A DNA stretch of 64,000 bases, taken from the NCBI RefSeq assembly GCF_002813425.1, contig NZ_PHUL01000001.1, positions 1,995,001-2,059,000 on the forward strand. Direction: 5' to 3'. Position numbers and translations under genes: made by a program. This DNA comes from Cellulophaga sp. RHA19. Lineage in GTDB: Bacteria; Bacteroidota; Bacteroidia; Flavobacteriales; Flavobacteriaceae. Shown piece by piece: positions 3,312-61,322 of the stretch. How positions within the stretch are numbered: the stretch's first letter is position 1; the number at the start of each line of letters is the position of its first letter. The notes under the pieces are model-generated. The model did no database searches. It saw only the letters and a list, made by a program, of their open reading frames with translations, and was not told the DNA's origin.

Positions 3312-4325
3312 TTAAACTATACTGTTGCTATAAGCAACTATTACAATACCAATTACCATACAACTAAGTCCTAGGTATAAAAAGTTTCTTGCTTTTTTAG
3401 ATGCGTTAATCCACTCTTTGGTTATTATACCACTTAAAATTGCTGTTACCACACATGAAGTATTAAAAATTGCGTAACCAACAGTGTTACCCGAAGCTCC
3501 TAATTTATAAGCTGCAAATGCAAATAGGGCAGAAGCGGCATAGTGAAAAAATGCCATTACTAATATTAATACAAAGTTTTTACTAAAAGCAGGCGTTTTA
3601 AAATCTTTCCAAGCTTTTTTACTGTTTAATTGCCATAGAAAATAGGCAGTCATTACAATACCACCACTAATAAAAATAGGAAACATAACAGCAACAGCAG
3701 TAATCCACTCAGCATTTCCTGCAGCTTGGCTAGCCTCATGTAAGTAAGGTCTTCCTGCTGCATTAGCATAACTAAAGCCAGTTGCTAACAAACCGCCAAC
3801 TACAGCAATTAAAATACCTGTGGCCATAGAACCTTTTTTTAAAGTATCATCTTTTGTGTTTTTTTCTACTTTTTCTCGTATAAAACCAGCTTTTCCGTTA
3901 GCAAATATGCCTATTAAAACAACAAACAAACCAATCAAAATTATTGATAGTTTATTAGTAGGGGGTAAGCCATCTTCAATAAAAGGTAATACAGAACCTA
4001 CTAAAATTATGGTTCCAATAAATAAAGAAAACCCTAAAGACAAACCAATGTGATTAATAGCCTTGCTCCACATCATAACTCCAACTCCCCAAAGAAAACT
4101 TGTAAGTCCCATTTTTATCCATATATCTGTTGGCATATTTCCAAAAATATCACCAAACCCTTTTATTAAAGTTATTGATGCAATTATTGGAACAACAAAC
4201 ATTGTTAGTAGAAAAAATAAGCTCCAAGTATTCTCATATTTAAAATCTTTGGTAAATTTTTCTGGTAAGGCATATAGGCCCAACATTAATCCTGCAAAAA
4301 TTGCTAGTAATACTCCTTCTGTCAT
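3312..4325 (-). CDS. RhaT-type sugar:proton symporter
   Basis: A 337-residue membrane protein with about ten hydrophobic helices, starting EGVLLAIFAGLMLGLYALPEKF, which resembles the L-rhamnose-proton symporter (RhaT) family in order and length. It is the last gene of the minus-strand AHG catabolic operon, 34 bases after the epimerase gene. That position suggests it imports 3,6-anhydro-L-galactose, L-galactose or another red-algal monosaccharide rather than rhamnose, since no rhamnose isomerase or kinase is nearby. Substrate assignment is inference. Confidence 0.75.
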   Translation of the reverse strand: MTEGVLLAIFAGLMLGLYALPEKFTKDFKYENTWSLFFLLTMFVVPIIASITLIKGFGDIFGNMPTDIWIKMGLTSFLWGVGVMMWSKAINHIGLSLGFSLFIGTIILVGSVLPFIEDGLPPTNKLSIILIGLFVVLIGIFANGKAGFIREKVEKNTKDDTLKKGSMATGILIAVVGGLLATGFSYANAAGRPYLHEASQAAGNAEWITAVAVMFPIFISGGIVMTAYFLWQLNSKKAWKDFKTPAFSKNFVLILVMAFFHYAASALFAFAAYKLGASGNTVGYAIFNTSCVVTAILSGIITKEWINASKKARNFLYLGLSCMVIGIVIVAYSNSIV

Positions 4326-52731: not shown

Positions 52732-52782
52732 TGCGTTTATTACACCAATATGGGTGAATAAACGCAATGAATTGCGTTTATT
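52732..52782. repeat. Triple alternating inverted repeat, left edge of cassette-like region
   Basis: TGCGTTTATT (52732-52741), its complement AATAAACGCA (52757-52766) and TGCGTTTATT again (52773-52782). CACC/GGTG extends the first stem, and AAT/ATT the second, so two mutually exclusive hairpins are possible 30 bases before the first gene of the cassette-like region. Confidence 0.6.
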
Positions 52783-52812
52783 TATAGTTATGCATAATAC
52801 AAAAAAACTGAT

Positions 52813-53493
52813 ATGAGTGAATTAATTGGAAGTGGACATGAGGAAAGATGGTATCCTATTCCGATACATAAAATAAAGAATCATTTCTCAAAATATGTGA
52901 TTGACGAAGAATTATGTCCTGATTCGAAATATATTATTGCAAACATCAGTTATAACATACAATACATCCAGTATTTACGAAAAACATTGAATGAATTAAA
53001 TCTTTCAGAAGTTCTTCAAATTCAAACAATAAAGAGTTTCATAGTTATTAGCACTTCTATTATTGAAGCTATATTTTATTTAATATGTTGCAATGAAAAC
53101 TTGCGAAAAAAAATTATCTGGAAAGAATTCAAAACTATTGGTAAATCTGAATTTTTACTTGACGGAAAAAAATTAAAAAGTGAAACTAAACTCTTTGAAA
53201 AAAATGCTGATTCTGGATTTGAGTCATTGACTTTTGACCAAATGATTAAAAAAATAGAAACAAAAAAAATACTAAAACAAGAAAATCAATTTTTTAAAGA
53301 TTTGAATCACTTAAGAAAACTAAGAAATAAAATTCATCTTCAGGAAACCAAAACAATAGGAAAAACTGATTACAATTCATTTTGGAGACCAGAATATAAT
53401 TTATCGAAAAAGAACTTGAGATTATTATTGCTTGATGAAATCTTTAAAGCTGACGAATGGAATATTGAATTGTTTGAATTTTTAAAAACATAA
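52813..53493 (+). CDS. HEPN-like hypothetical protein (first cassette gene)
   Basis: 226 residues, all helical, no signal. Near the C-terminus LNHLRKLRNKIHLQ carries an R-x(4-6)-H arrangement typical of HEPN RNases/RiboL-PSP-HEPN proteins, and SFIVISTSIIEAIFYLIC is the usual first helix pair. HEPN function is inference from these motifs. Codon use (more AAA/GAA and TTG, less TTA) looks unlike its neighbours. It is followed by a long palindromic repeat. Confidence 0.6.
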   Translation: MSELIGSGHEERWYPIPIHKIKNHFSKYVIDEELCPDSKYIIANISYNIQYIQYLRKTLNELNLSEVLQIQTIKSFIVISTSIIEAIFYLICCNENLRKKIIWKEFKTIGKSEFLLDGKKLKSETKLFEKNADSGFESLTFDQMIKKIETKKILKQENQFFKDLNHLRKLRNKIHLQETKTIGKTDYNSFWRPEYNLSKKNLRLLLLDEIFKADEWNIELFEFLKT

Positions 53494-53504
53494 AGCACTA
53501 TGCA

Positions 53505-53696
53505 CAACAAAAGCTATAATTAATACGGGCTTTGGTGTTTAATTCAGAAGAAAGTGTATTTTTACTAAGTCCGCCAAATCTTTTGATTTGGCTTTAGAAC
53601 AAAAAAAGATAAAACAAAATTAAAAGTTTTGGCTAAGTGCTAAACTGAAAGTCTCTGACTTTCTATTTCCGTACTAACCATAGCTAAAACGTTAGC
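53505..53696. repeat. Long imperfect palindrome B (attC-like)
   Basis: About 190 bases. The ends AGCTATAATTAATACGG and CCGTACTAACCATAGCT are imperfect complements, closing with GTTAGC. A perfect inner hairpin GCCAAATC-TTTT-GATTTGGC is at 53573-53592. Roughly four fifths of its central 160 bases are shared with the repeat at 54946-55140. Confidence 0.7.
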
Positions 53697-53726
53697 TTTA
53701 ATTTGAAAAATCGTTGAAGGAAGAGG

Positions 53727-54170
53727 ATGAAACGAAGTGAAATTTTAATCATATCCATGACTTTTATTGGATTTGCCTCATTATTAGTATGGTTTGGACA
53801 CCTATCTTTTGGAATTTTTCAAAACTCGAAACCAATTATCTTGGAAACTCCAATTACTGGAGTTATCAACGACCTAAACCAGTACAAAGGCTTCACTTAT
53901 ATTCAGCTCGAACATGAAAATGAGTATTGGAAAATAGATGGTAGCAAAAATTATGACTATTCAGAGCCTTTTATTGCCGATTTTTTACTGAAAGGAGATT
54001 TTTTGGAAAAAAATAAATGCTCGGACACACTTTTTGTTAAAAGGGATAATCAAAAATTTCATTTCTTGATTGGCGACGTACTTTATAATAGCAAAACGCG
54101 TTCGAAAGAATTCATTGAATATTGGCGAAATCAAAGACGAATTATAACGGAAAAAAGTGATTGTAAATAA
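53727..54170 (+). CDS. Single-helix hypothetical protein (second cassette gene)
   Basis: 147 residues: one N-terminal helix (EILIISMTFIGFASLLVWF) then a polar domain with LEHENEYWKIDGSKNYDYSE. No family recognised. It starts 30 bases after palindrome B and ends ten bases before palindrome C. Confidence 0.6.
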   Translation: MKRSEILIISMTFIGFASLLVWFGHLSFGIFQNSKPIILETPITGVINDLNQYKGFTYIQLEHENEYWKIDGSKNYDYSEPFIADFLLKGDFLEKNKCSDTLFVKRDNQKFHFLIGDVLYNSKTRSKEFIEYWRNQRRIITEKSDCK

Positions 54171-54179
54171 AAAAACTAA

Positions 54180-54312
54180 AGCTAACATTACCTATAATTC
54201 AGTCTTGCCTTTTTCTAAAAATAAAATTTAGTACTTTTAATCCGGCTCGATTCCAATCTTGAAAAATCCTAACGGATTTCCCAGACCGAAATCATAGCCT
54301 AACCGTTAGCAA
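54180..54312. repeat. Long imperfect palindrome C (attC-like)
   Basis: GCTAAC (54181-54186) and GTTAGC (54305-54310) close the element. CTAT and ATAG, GTCT and AGAC follow inwards, and AAATCC-TAAC-GGATTT is an inner hairpin. Its middle is different from B and D, but its ends are the same. Confidence 0.6.
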
Positions 54313-54327
54313 CAAGTGCTCAAAAAA

Positions 54328-54828
54328 ATGAAGAAAGTAATACAAGTTTTAATTTTTACAATTGTGCTTACTGGATTTAGCCAAACTGGGTCTGTTAGTG
54401 GGAAAGTAATTTTTAAACTTGATTCGCTTAGTGTCCCAGGAGCAACTGTAATAATAAGCGGTACTAAAATCGGTGCTGCCGCTGATATTAATGGAGCCTT
54501 TGAAATTCCGAAATTGAAAGAAGGTAATTATGATTTGGTGGTCGAAGCCATAGGTTATGGAAAAGATACTATTCAAAACGTAATCGTTAATAATAATTCG
54601 AAAACCAAAATAACACTAGGTTTACCAGCAGGAAAATGTCATGTAAAGACTAGCTCTAAAAAATGTCCAATAGATGGAAAAACTAAAAATGTTATTCCAA
54701 TTCTTTATGGGTTGCCAAGAGAAAAAACAATACGGAAAATGAAAAAAGGAAAAGTCAAACTTGGCGGCTGTGAAGTTACTGGTTGTGAGCCAAATTGGTT
54801 TTGTAAAGAACATAAACAGGAATTTTGA
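54328..54828 (+). CDS. CarboxypepD-reg-like exported protein (third cassette gene)
   Basis: 166 residues from ATG at 54328, signal peptide ending TGFSQ. Residues ~22-105 are a carboxypeptidase regulatory-like beta-sandwich (GSVSGKVIFKLDS, ATVIISGTKIGA, YDLVVEAIGYGKDT). The C-terminal part has six cysteines, including KCHVKTSSKKCPIDG and GCEVTGCEPNWFCKEH, which could form a metal or disulfide module. No full-length relative is known to me. Confidence 0.68.
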   Translation: MKKVIQVLIFTIVLTGFSQTGSVSGKVIFKLDSLSVPGATVIISGTKIGAAADINGAFEIPKLKEGNYDLVVEAIGYGKDTIQNVIVNNNSKTKITLGLPAGKCHVKTSSKKCPIDGKTKNVIPILYGLPREKTIRKMKKGKVKLGGCEVTGCEPNWFCKEHKQEF

Positions 54829-54945
54829 GCAAGTTTGTACAGGTGGACTTCACTCGATCGCAATCACTGTGTTGATGGACTTTCAACTCGGACGGAAAAT
54901 AATATAAAACGCAAAGTTACGTGCTTACTCGAAAGTGTCGCACCA

Positions 54946-55140
54946 GTTGCTAACAATGCCTATAATTAATACGGGTTTTGGTGCTTAACCCAAAGTTTAG
55001 TGCTTTTAACCAAGTCCGCCAAATCTTTTGATTTGGCTTTATAAAGAAAAAGATAAAACAAAATAAAAAGTTTTGGCTAAGTGCTTAATCGAAAGTTTAT
55101 TACTTTTAATTCCCGTACTAATTATAACCGAGACGTTGCC
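54946..55140. repeat. Long imperfect palindrome D (attC-like)
   Basis: TTGCTAACAATGCC at the left and GACGTTGCC at the right. TATAATTAATACGGG pairs imperfectly with CCCGTACTAATTATA, and the same GCCAAATC hairpin as in B is at 55018-55037. The extra 117 bases before it (54829-54945) show no coding or recognisable signal. Confidence 0.7.
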
Positions 55141-55146
55141 AGTAAT

Positions 55147-55662
55147 ATGAAAAAACACATTCAAAAAAGAAAGGTTTTATTGAGATTTGCTTATTTAGGT
55201 TCATTTTTATTAATTAGCCTTTATTCTTGTATAATGCAAAAGCCTTATTCAGCTAAAATAGCAAAATTTCAACCATCTTTTTTGGGGGAAATTAAAGAAA
55301 ATAATTTAAAAAGAATTGCAGATACAACAGCTATTCTTATCACCGGAAAAGTGTATGATTATGATAGGCCTGAAGGAGGTATTTCCGTGATTTTTATTAG
55401 TAAAGAAAACAAAAGAAAGTTTAGAACAGTCACTGATTCTAAGGGACATTTTAAAATAAACATTGTCAATGGATTGTACAATATACAGCTAATACCTTAT
55501 AAATATGGTAAGTCTCCATCTTTAAACTTTGAAAATTTAAACTTTAAATCTGGAGAAATACGTGAATTAATAATTTATACAGAATCATCTGCTGAGACTG
55601 TATCAATGGATACCATTTTTGAAAGTAAAAGAGCTTATAATGAATATATTAAAAGGCAATAA
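55147..55662 (+). CDS. Carboxypeptidase-regulatory-like lipoprotein (fourth cassette gene)
   Basis: 171 residues from ATG at 55147, six bases after palindrome D; a GTG further upstream lies inside the repeat and is unlikely. Lipobox-like LISLYSC (Cys27), then TAILITGKVYDYDRPEGGISVIF and FRTVTDSKGHFKINI typical of a CarboxypepD_reg-type beta sandwich. After the stop, CAACAATGCCTATAG at 55677 is a partial left end of the same repeat type. Confidence 0.65.
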   Translation: MKKHIQKRKVLLRFAYLGSFLLISLYSCIMQKPYSAKIAKFQPSFLGEIKENNLKRIADTTAILITGKVYDYDRPEGGISVIFISKENKRKFRTVTDSKGHFKINIVNGLYNIQLIPYKYGKSPSLNFENLNFKSGEIRELIIYTESSAETVSMDTIFESKRAYNEYIKRQ

Positions 55663-55733
55663 GAAATACTACAGACAACAATGCCTATAGCAAATGGGAC
55701 ATAAAGAGTTAAATTTTTAGTCTTGTAAACTTT

Positions 55734-55904: not shown

Positions 55905-56792
55905 ATGAAATTAAAAATAGCTTATAGCACGTTCTTTGCCACTTTGTTTTTTACAGTCACATTAAGTGCGCAATACAACCAGACTAATGGTGATGGTGCA
56001 GAAATAACTTCTTACAGACCTTTTGAAGTGGCTACTGATTATGCCAACTTTAGCAAATGTATAATGCCTAGTGCAGGAGCACAAAAAACTTGTTTTACAG
56101 ACAAATTACAAGAGCTTTTTAATGAGAACTTAAAAATGCCTAAAGATTCTATTTCTCAAAACTTTAATGGAAAAGTATATTTTAACTTTTTTACAGATGA
56201 TAAAGGAGAGCTAGAGTCTACAGAGATTTTTAGTAGACCAGAAACTAAATTTATTGGAGAAAAAATAGATGTGGTTCTAAAAAAATTCCCAACCCTTAAA
56301 GTAGTTCAATTAAAAGATACGGCTGTTAGTACAGGTTATGTGTTGTATGCCAAATTTAACCCAGGAGAACCTATTCGTTTAAAGGTTGTAGATATTAAGG
56401 TAAGTAAAGAAAATTTAAAAGAAAATGAAAAAGAAGAAAATGATGTACCCTTTGTAATTGTGGATGATGTACCCGTATTTCCTGGTTGTGAAGATATGGC
56501 CATAAGTAGTAGGAGATCTTGTTTTCAAAATAAACTAGGTAAACACATTGCTAAACATTTTAGATACCCAGAAGAAGCTCAAGAATTAGGTATAGAAGGT
56601 AGAGTAAACATTATGTTTCTTATTGATAAAGATGGATTTGTAAAAAACATAAAAACCAGAGGACCGCACCCTTTATTTGAATTGGAAGGGCGAAGAATTT
56701 TTACAAAACTTCCTCGTATGACTCCGGGGAAAGTAAAAGGGAAACCTGTAAGAGTACCTTTTAGTATACCTTTGACTTTTAGACTTAACTAA
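55905..56792 (+). CDS. TonB C-terminal-domain protein
   Basis: 295 residues with a cleavable signal (LSAQ) rather than a TonB-type membrane anchor. The TonB C-terminal domain (about 190-293) reads FRYPEEAQELGIEGRVNIMF to VPFSIPLTFRL. An N-terminal half (about 60-160) resembles a degenerate second copy (VYFNFFTDDKGELESTEIFS). PVFPGCEDM linkers are typical of flavobacteria. It is probably an envelope partner rather than a classical energy transducer. Confidence 0.78.
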   Translation: MKLKIAYSTFFATLFFTVTLSAQYNQTNGDGAEITSYRPFEVATDYANFSKCIMPSAGAQKTCFTDKLQELFNENLKMPKDSISQNFNGKVYFNFFTDDKGELESTEIFSRPETKFIGEKIDVVLKKFPTLKVVQLKDTAVSTGYVLYAKFNPGEPIRLKVVDIKVSKENLKENEKEENDVPFVIVDDVPVFPGCEDMAISSRRSCFQNKLGKHIAKHFRYPEEAQELGIEGRVNIMFLIDKDGFVKNIKTRGPHPLFELEGRRIFTKLPRMTPGKVKGKPVRVPFSIPLTFRLN

Positions 56793-59239: not shown

Positions 59240-59438
59240 TGTTAACAAACTAAAAATAAAGCCAATTGTCTACACAACCTAAACATAATACTGATTTTAG
59301 TGCAAAACGGAAAAGTTCTTATACATTTACAAAATTGTTAGATTTTAAAACCAATACTTTGGCAAGCTTTTAGAACATTAAAAGCATTGTATTTTAAATA
59401 TTAAAGTGTCAATGGTGGGTAATACAAAAACAATAAAA

Positions 59439-60878: not shown

Positions 60879-61322
60879 ATGAATAGACAGTTGAGCAAAA
60901 GTATTTTTTTATCCTATATATTAGGAGCTCCTATTGTGTTACTTACAGTAATTACAACTATTTTAATACCTGTTATTTATGTAGGTAAAGGCTTAAGCTC
61001 AATGTCTATAGTTTTAGGTAGTGGCTTTCAAACAATTGGGTTTGTTTTGGCGTTTTTAGTAGCATTTTGGTTAGGAGGAAAACTAGCTGATACAAATATA
61101 AAAAACAACAATCTATTAATTTCAACTTCATTTAAATACTCTGTATTAGTGAATTTAATAATTTGGATTGTTTTTTGTTTAATTGTTGGTCAGTCTACAG
61201 GTAATTCTTATTTTTTATTTACACCTCCTGCAATTATAGCCGTTATTGTAAGTACAACAATTACAACATTTACAATTGGACTTCTTATTTCTTACCTAAT
61301 TAAAAAAATTAACAACTTGTAA
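60879..61322 (+). CDS. Four-helix membrane protein, hypothetical
   Basis: 147 residues with four hydrophobic helices (about 10-35, 42-65, 82-102, 112-140). Charged ends MNRQLSKS and LIKKINNL. No family recognised. It converges on purU. Confidence 0.65.
   Translation: MNRQLSKSIFLSYILGAPIVLLTVITTILIPVIYVGKGLSSMSIVLGSGFQTIGFVLAFLVAFWLGGKLADTNIKNNNLLISTSFKYSVLVNLIIWIVFCLIVGQSTGNSYFLFTPPAIIAVIVSTTITTFTIGLLISYLIKKINNL

Follow-up and report, generated by a model that had tools for sequence, protein, structure and literature searches.

A stretch of 64,000 nucleotides from Cellulophaga sp. RHA19 (hereafter the window; contig NZ_PHUL01000001.1, positions 1,995,001 to 2,059,000) carries, at 52.69-55.70 kb, an attI-like site followed by four cassettes with one open reading frame (ORF) each, the attC of the last one being truncated. 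Which system lines up single genes in this manner? The original prediction proposed an undescribed flavobacterial cassette system that follows the logic of integron attC sites. We put at roughly 0.87 the probability that the window holds an integron-type gene-capture array of Bacteroidota run by XerA-like recombinases. This reading is argued from the cassette unit, its borders, the complementarity of cassette start and end, the conservation of the hairpin and the attI-like copies, together with linkage to recombinases across many genera, gene content that varies at a conserved site and cassette sharing between orders, all of which can be made out in the DNA.

Cassette units, their borders and their probable movement

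Element D, the attC-like hairpin of the third cassette (54946-55143, plus strand, ~196-nt type, GTT at 55135-55137), matched at least 34 places in the 3.93-Mb genome by blastn, its own among them; 40 of 152 candidates were scored, so the count is a lower bound. Because of these 34 matches, the repeats of the window are far beyond chance. The matches form clusters at 412-416, 492, 696-698, 734-750, 1350-1388, 2048-2050 (the window), 3553-3555, 3607-3610 and 3790-3792 kb, with a single orientation within each.

In the largest array (730-752 kb), a cassette opens with GTTR, followed by some five variable bases, and closes with the reverse complement of these, e.g. GTTAGCAAT...ATTGCTAAC. The core had been predicted as GTTAGC(A/T) or GTTGCC, which has to be corrected to GTTR and about five variable bases complementary to the same cassette's own end. 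In the start/end test, 143 hairpin sites were found by the inner stem only, complementarity not being used for detection, and the stretches from one site to the next gave 84 cassettes. In 61 of these, all 6 variable bases of the start agreed with the cassette's own end (mean 5.11), whereas the two ends of one hairpin agreed at 6/6 in 1/84 (mean 2.37), and random pairing of starts and ends gave a mean of 2.12/6, never exceeding 2.69 in 1000 shuffles. The loci behind the 84 cassettes were partly picked for containing cassettes; in 16 recombinase-neighbour loci taken whole, the corresponding counts were 24/34 for own start and end versus 0/34 within one element, and in the own-genome subset 5/7 versus 0/7. 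A start complementary to the cassette's own end is the mark that circular integron cassettes would leave on insertion at GTT.

Cassette counts were made with a strict finder, an earlier link search and a permissive chain finder having been dropped for finding too many cassettes in shuffled DNA and on both strands. Among 120 cassettes with 9/9 core pairing, 116 had their ORF on the array strand, one on the opposite strand and three had none, so that the predicted placement of the repeats between single ORFs in one orientation was upheld, and scattering regardless of gene boundaries was not observed. GTTRRRY fitted 6 of the 120 cassette starts, and GTT[AG] was present in all by search design.

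Whole units appear to have moved. Cassette 2 of the window is identical at 618 of 619 positions (53689-54307) to a cassette of the main array at 738.06-738.68 kb, 1.31 Mb away; the edges of the duplicate are its two GTT cores, and similarity clearly drops outside both. In a search of 5.8 billion proteins, restricted to relatives with common short words, the cassette 2 protein had four homologs: one from Cellulophaga (93%), one from Maribacter (86%) and two from metagenomic contigs. Two relatives, G012 and G006, keep the attI-like site and a TonB_C-domain gene (at 55905 in the window, after the array) at the orthologous place, and the ORFs between them differ: four in RHA19, seven in G012 and two in G006, followed in both relatives by a further gene that they have in common. 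Conserved synteny without variable content, named beforehand as an outcome that would tell against cassettes, was thus not seen.

The flavobacterial limit of the original prediction did not hold, although its attC logic did. A plasmid of Flammeovirga, a member of another order, has a 533-bp cassette stretch 95.5% identical to RHA19, an ATP-grasp gene 82.5% identical to a place in that genome and a copy of element D at 92.5% identity over 94%; the cassette finder detected no complete cassette on this plasmid. A Persicobacter plasmid (Cytophagales) has a 504-bp stretch in common at 80.8%, and 16 cassettes, some of them repeats of one another, were detected in 20 kb of it. Further cassettes lie in loci of metagenome-assembled genomes (MAGs) titled Bacteroidales and Sphingobacteriales. 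On the Persicobacter psychrovividus plasmid pPP2 (L032), what appears to be a single cassette (GTTGTGGCTAAT, 584-nt body) occurs four times among the 16.

The hairpin is conserved in structure and in size. The lengths of the attC-like sites in the 120 cassettes are quantised: 129-136 nt in 80, 164-167 nt in 6, 194-200 nt in 24 and elsewhere in 10. In an alignment of 55 sites of the 131-nt type from many genera, pre-selected by a stem finder, all 18 stem pairs showed two-sided changes, and 86.6% of cells paired, compared with 57.7% after letter shuffles and 31-40% when slid. For 17 elements picked by blastn only, Watson-Crick pairs were found in 150/207 cells versus 35-66 of 206-208 when slid. 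An A opposite a C is conserved within the stem in 51 of the 55 sites and in 15 of the 17 blastn-picked elements, the remaining two being gapped there. Classical attC sites have unpaired bases in the stem, to which this A/C is comparable. The bottom strand of element D folds at -25.7 kcal/mol (z -3.4) versus -22.3 (z -1.9) for the top strand. The site may act as a folded single strand. In one repeat at 3790 kb (L020:8040-8240), the left and right halves appear to be of different types; it was kept in the alignment, where it lowers the pairing count. The Flammeovirga cassette repeat (L031:9501-10186) looks hybrid likewise, and both have the appearance of two sites fused in mid-repeat by homologous recombination.

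The window array itself was read directly from the sequence, and the predicted layout of four plus-strand single ORFs parted by long hairpin repeats was confirmed. All its parts are on the plus strand. It begins with an element that the prediction had not named, a conserved attI-like site of ~95 bp (52690 to about 52786-52789) with the motifs TGCGTTTA, TAAACGCA and again TGCGTTTA, and with the palindrome AATAAACGCAATGAATTGCGTTTATT at 52757-52782. Cassette 1 (52787..53691) has the start core GTTATGCAT and its own end ACTATGCACAAC, complementary at 8/9 positions, a match not significant on its own; its 226-aa ORF (52813-53493) is without a Pfam match, and its attC-like hairpin, element B, lies at 53500-53699 with GTT at 53691-53693. 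Cassette 2 (53691..54305) consists of a 147-aa ORF (53727-54170) and element C (54178-54313, ~130-nt type, GTT at 54305-54307). Cassette 3 (54305..55135) runs from GTTAGCAAC to GTTGCTAAC with a core match of 9/9, and its 166-aa ORF (54328-54828) has the carboxypeptidase-regulatory-like domain PF13715. Cassette 4 (55135..55679) has a 171-aa ORF (55147-55662) with a PF13620 score below the cut-off, and its own end is complementary by eye in just 7/9. The array closes at a truncated attC-like left end (55671 to about 55700-55715), in agreement with the predicted partial element. Equally, elements B and D proved to have a long repeat in common (186/198 bp alignable at 81%, including the hairpin GCCAAATC-TTTT-GATTTGGC at 53573-53592), and element C resembles them at the ends only. 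As an Rfam identity for the region, four matches were considered and rejected, all to microRNA families and far under the gathering scores.

Two places lie outside the array. At 59265-59330, with ordinary genes on either side, is the left half of an attC-like repeat, 67% identical to one in G006; its right end was not seen by eye, and it is probably a degraded cassette. A 147-aa membrane-like protein at 60879-61322 resembles, by eye, a cassette ORF of G012 (L132:14050-14529) and may be a former cassette gene fixed outside an array.

attI-like sites and the array-linked recombinase

No integrase was found in the window, as predicted. The RHA19 genome has four tyrosine recombinases, and the candidate lies 1.32 Mb away at 728.9-729.7 kb (L012:3854-4740), where it ends ~20 bp ahead of the attI-like palindrome that heads the main array. 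A tyrosine recombinase, which the prediction had suggested looking for at the end of an array, is thus present at an array start.

The attI-like palindrome was found in 18 copies in the genome with at most three mismatches, compared with one hit for a reversed-pattern control; 16 copies are strong, the two weak ones lying at 1404 and 1605 kb. About 95 conserved bases surround the palindrome in most copies, the left part being absent from the 729 kb copy beside the recombinase. All 18 have a GTT 6-7 nt downstream, and at 13 the end of the first cassette is a 9/9 complement, which 0-6 of 200 shuffles reach. A search of 20 genomes with one exact palindrome pattern gave matches in eight (12 sites in RHA19, 6 in G002, 2 in G003, 5 in G006, 7 in G012, 2 in G038 and 1 each in G034 and G057), and lineages with other palindromes gave no match to that pattern. 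The palindrome was also considered as a LexA box and rejected; the Bacteroidetes boxes CTAA-N5-TTAG and GGA-N5-TCC, given in the portion of PMC8565304 consulted, misfit it by eye.

Recombinase and attI-like site occur together. Among 100 genomes, RHA19 included, a recombinase of at least 80% identity was present in RHA19, G002, G003, G006, G012 and G051, intact in the latter five, and the attI-like site was detected in the same six and marginally in G081 (E 1e-3). Of 18 genomes sampled from the own genus, 5 thus have this version. G012 has an additional, broken recombinase copy (C51:5624-6102). At E 1e-30, a recombinase match was found in 63 of the 100 genomes; 48 had both this and the 131-nt attC (blastn), and 33 had neither.

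The linkage extends to relatives in other genera. In 16 loci, comprising the five intact orthologs and eleven relatives at 49-66% identity (three from other species of the genus, the rest from other genera), cassettes lie downstream on the recombinase strand in 14 and on the other strand in none, with at most 0.2 per strand in shuffled DNA; in this set, the L115 contig ends ~200 bp past the gene, and the L119 gene is short and apparently broken. By eye, a palindrome and then GTT directly follow the recombinase gene at 15 of 17 loci, the own locus included, the layout after the gene being longer and different in L125 and L126. At 80 named loci, cassettes were detected at 17, with 46 downstream, none upstream and three on the opposite strand, against 0-0.4 per locus in shuffled DNA; 16 of these 17 loci are among the 42 titled Bacteroidota or unassigned, and one, a Spirochaetota MAG (L181), is among the 38 titled as other phyla. 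When enzyme matches alone were counted, a hit at E≤1e-55 to one 376-aa enzyme was obtained in 107 of the 392 phylum genomes, the own class accounting for 52. Recombinases of 376-390 aa (L118, L120-L128) have an N-terminal region of ~80-100 aa, to which the members scanned gave no Pfam match; the own lineage and G051, with forms of 297-305 aa, lack this region.

An IS110-family element (PF01548, PF02371) is present in two full copies (L012:6098-7312, i.e. 731.1-732.3 kb, and 1373.6-1374.8 kb) and one remnant (1389.8 kb). By sequence, all three have the same start point within an attC-like site, directly after the AACA core. IS110-type elements that target attC are known from classical integrons.

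Competing explanations and a proposed mechanism

Of the alternatives, the one that survives best, though we regard it as improbable, is a classical integron or a cluster of attC sites lacking an integron integrase (CALIN), driven by IntI and with diverged attC sites that standard models overlook. It would share the cassette logic, the GTT core and the attI adjoining the recombinase, a classical IntI over the cut-off does occur in 108 of the 392 phylum genomes, and the eight array-linked recombinases tested do match the IntI model TIGR02249, at 197-215 bits. However, no gene of RHA19 matches the IntI model over its cut-off, and of 111 IntI-matching phylum genomes one is in the own class; the IntI-positive genomes may belong to groups such as Ignavibacteria and Chlorobi, in which integrons have already been reported. 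The scores of the eight recombinases stay under the TIGR02249 cut-off of 265, and their matches fall into two stretches that flank a gap at the IntI-specific part. Residues 183-245 of IntI4 (PDB 2a3v) had no counterpart in the one intact recombinase searched. Box I and HxxRH stand 86-91 aa apart in 30/30 array-linked enzymes versus 128 aa in IntI (14 of 16, two being unmeasurable); the distance is 91 and 93 aa in the own Xers and 84-88 aa in the three measurable archaeal rows, L187, L197 and L201.

In the tree, which omits INTI_L264, OT_L198 and OT_L150, IntI forms one clade with a support of 100, and one weakly supported group (82) unites seven other enzymes with 29 of the 30 that are array-linked, L167 lying outside. 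In the approximately unbiased (AU) test, which additionally omits OWNXER_L051 and OT_L187, a clade of the array-linked enzymes and their Bacteroidota relatives was not rejected (p-AU 0.38), whereas one that also holds IntI, to the exclusion of the rest, was weakly rejected (p-AU 0.024). NF040815 was the best NCBIfam match for all eight recombinases tested, with a near-tie with TIGR02249 for L113; its cut-off of 220 bits was exceeded by three (L118, L122 and L126), and the other five scored 207-218.4 bits.

By the sequence tests made here, the arrays resemble integrons: cassette start and own end are complementary, the attC-like hairpin has unpaired bases, an attI-like site stands beside the recombinase with cassettes behind it, and single ORFs form a variable array in one orientation. 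The recombinases nevertheless lack the IntI insertion and the cores depart from the classical RYYYAAC/GTTRRRY, and the system would therefore be an integron variant and not a classical integron. In the sections of PMC8138268 considered here, the insertion is called essential for integron function and is incompletely conserved in an integron-like subgroup; some such enzymes may therefore already be filed there by sequence.

A second alternative, that the host XerC/XerD move the cassettes at dif-like modules, appears very improbable. The array recombinase is Xer-like, and two further Xer-like genes are present at 1822 and 2246 kb. To our knowledge, however, XerC/D are nearly universal, whereas the same few genomes have both the attI-like site and its recombinase (at least 80% identity); and dif is a symmetric site of 28 bp, in contrast to the one-sided GTT cores and large hairpin seen here. 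Non-mobile palindromic repeats spread between genes (terminators, or elements like repetitive extragenic palindromes or bacterial interspersed mosaic elements) would also be intergenic, hairpin-forming and numerous, but are scarcely credible given that cassette starts match their own ends and not the other end of one element, that a gene together with its repeat recurs as one sharply bounded duplicate, and that arrays begin at an attI-like site beside a recombinase.

In the integron-type reading, single genes would travel as circular cassettes with one attC-like hairpin site each. A tyrosine recombinase of the XerA-like lineage, not a classical IntI, would join the cassette site at GTT to an attI-like palindrome or to the site of another cassette, and the cassettes behind attI would thereby all come to point the same way. 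In the own-genus lineage with the 297-aa recombinase, the attI-like site has multiplied across the chromosome, and the attI-like site and four cassettes of the window would presumably be served in trans from the 729 kb locus.

Several observations weigh against this reading. Recombination itself, and with it the joining by this enzyme and the use of attI copies in trans, is deduced from sequence. A frame break splits the own array recombinase into ORFs of 142 and 162 aa, and the arrays of this genome may therefore have become immobile or have come to depend on another enzyme. At five palindromes the first-cassette end falls short of 9/9 (8 in the window, 7 at 1372 kb, 8 at 1376 kb, 7 at 1404 kb and 8 at 1605 kb), and none of these beats shuffles, 34-169 of 200 reaching the score. 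The palindrome search of the own genome gave none near the 3607-3610 kb cluster, and the one nearest to the 3790-3792 kb cluster is 19 kb off. The attI-like hit of G051 is single and weak (4e-5), and the marginal hit of G081 is without a recombinase ortholog. A recombinase hit without a blastn attC was obtained in 15 of the 100 genomes and the reverse in four; 63 of the 80 named loci had no cassette, many of them with little downstream sequence.

Significance and comparison with known systems

The data point to about 16 small arrays of swappable cassettes in Cellulophaga sp. RHA19 and to similar arrays in many other Bacteroidota. We also lean, less firmly than to the integron-type reading itself, to the view that this is a separately evolved second integron system, with an XerA-like recombinase that lacks the IntI domain, and that one lineage has a distributed platform in which one recombinase fills ~16-18 attI copies in trans, drawing on a cross-order gene pool. 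If true, the occurrence of integron cassette logic in a widespread system that lacks the extra domain would mean that the mechanism is workable in another way or has arisen twice, and dispersed attI copies would represent a novel mode of integron operation. A largely uncatalogued cassette pool would be opened, a Pfam match having been found for 3/10 proteins of the main array. The parts of a standard integron survey available to us list one complete integron in Bacteroidetes proper (PMC9024848), a number for which the present system would help to account. Among open-licence papers in PubMed Central, judged by title and start of abstract, we found no account of such arrays in Bacteroidota; preprints fall outside this scope, and absence from print is not thereby shown.

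IntI1 also places cassettes at secondary sites, termed attG. These sites, and the delta-attI cassettes of PMC12901181 as far as the excerpt describes them, are similar in that cassettes can lie at more than one chromosomal site, and differ in that the extra sites here are long, conserved attI-like copies. XerA-type enzymes (NF040815, 'site-specific tyrosine recombinase/integron integrase') are the nearest family by NCBIfam match and have a similar box spacing, but the array-linked enzymes are tied to cassette arrays and have the extra N-terminal ~80-100 aa in 10/15 (alignment A1). With integrons (IntI, attI and attC, including CALIN), the arrays share single-gene cassettes, a start core that complements the first core in the hairpin site of the same cassette, one orientation, a GTT crossover, an attI beside the recombinase, variable content, and an attC held by structure rather than sequence with conserved unpaired stem bases. 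Unlike in integrons, the recombinase is without the ~42-aa IntI insertion and groups apart from IntI, the core is GTTR plus variable bases instead of GTTRRRY, the attI is a palindrome of ~22-26 bp placed 4-7 nt ahead of GTT, the recombinase lies 5' of attI and is co-directional with the array, and attI-like copies are numerous in the own lineage, with 18 in this genome.

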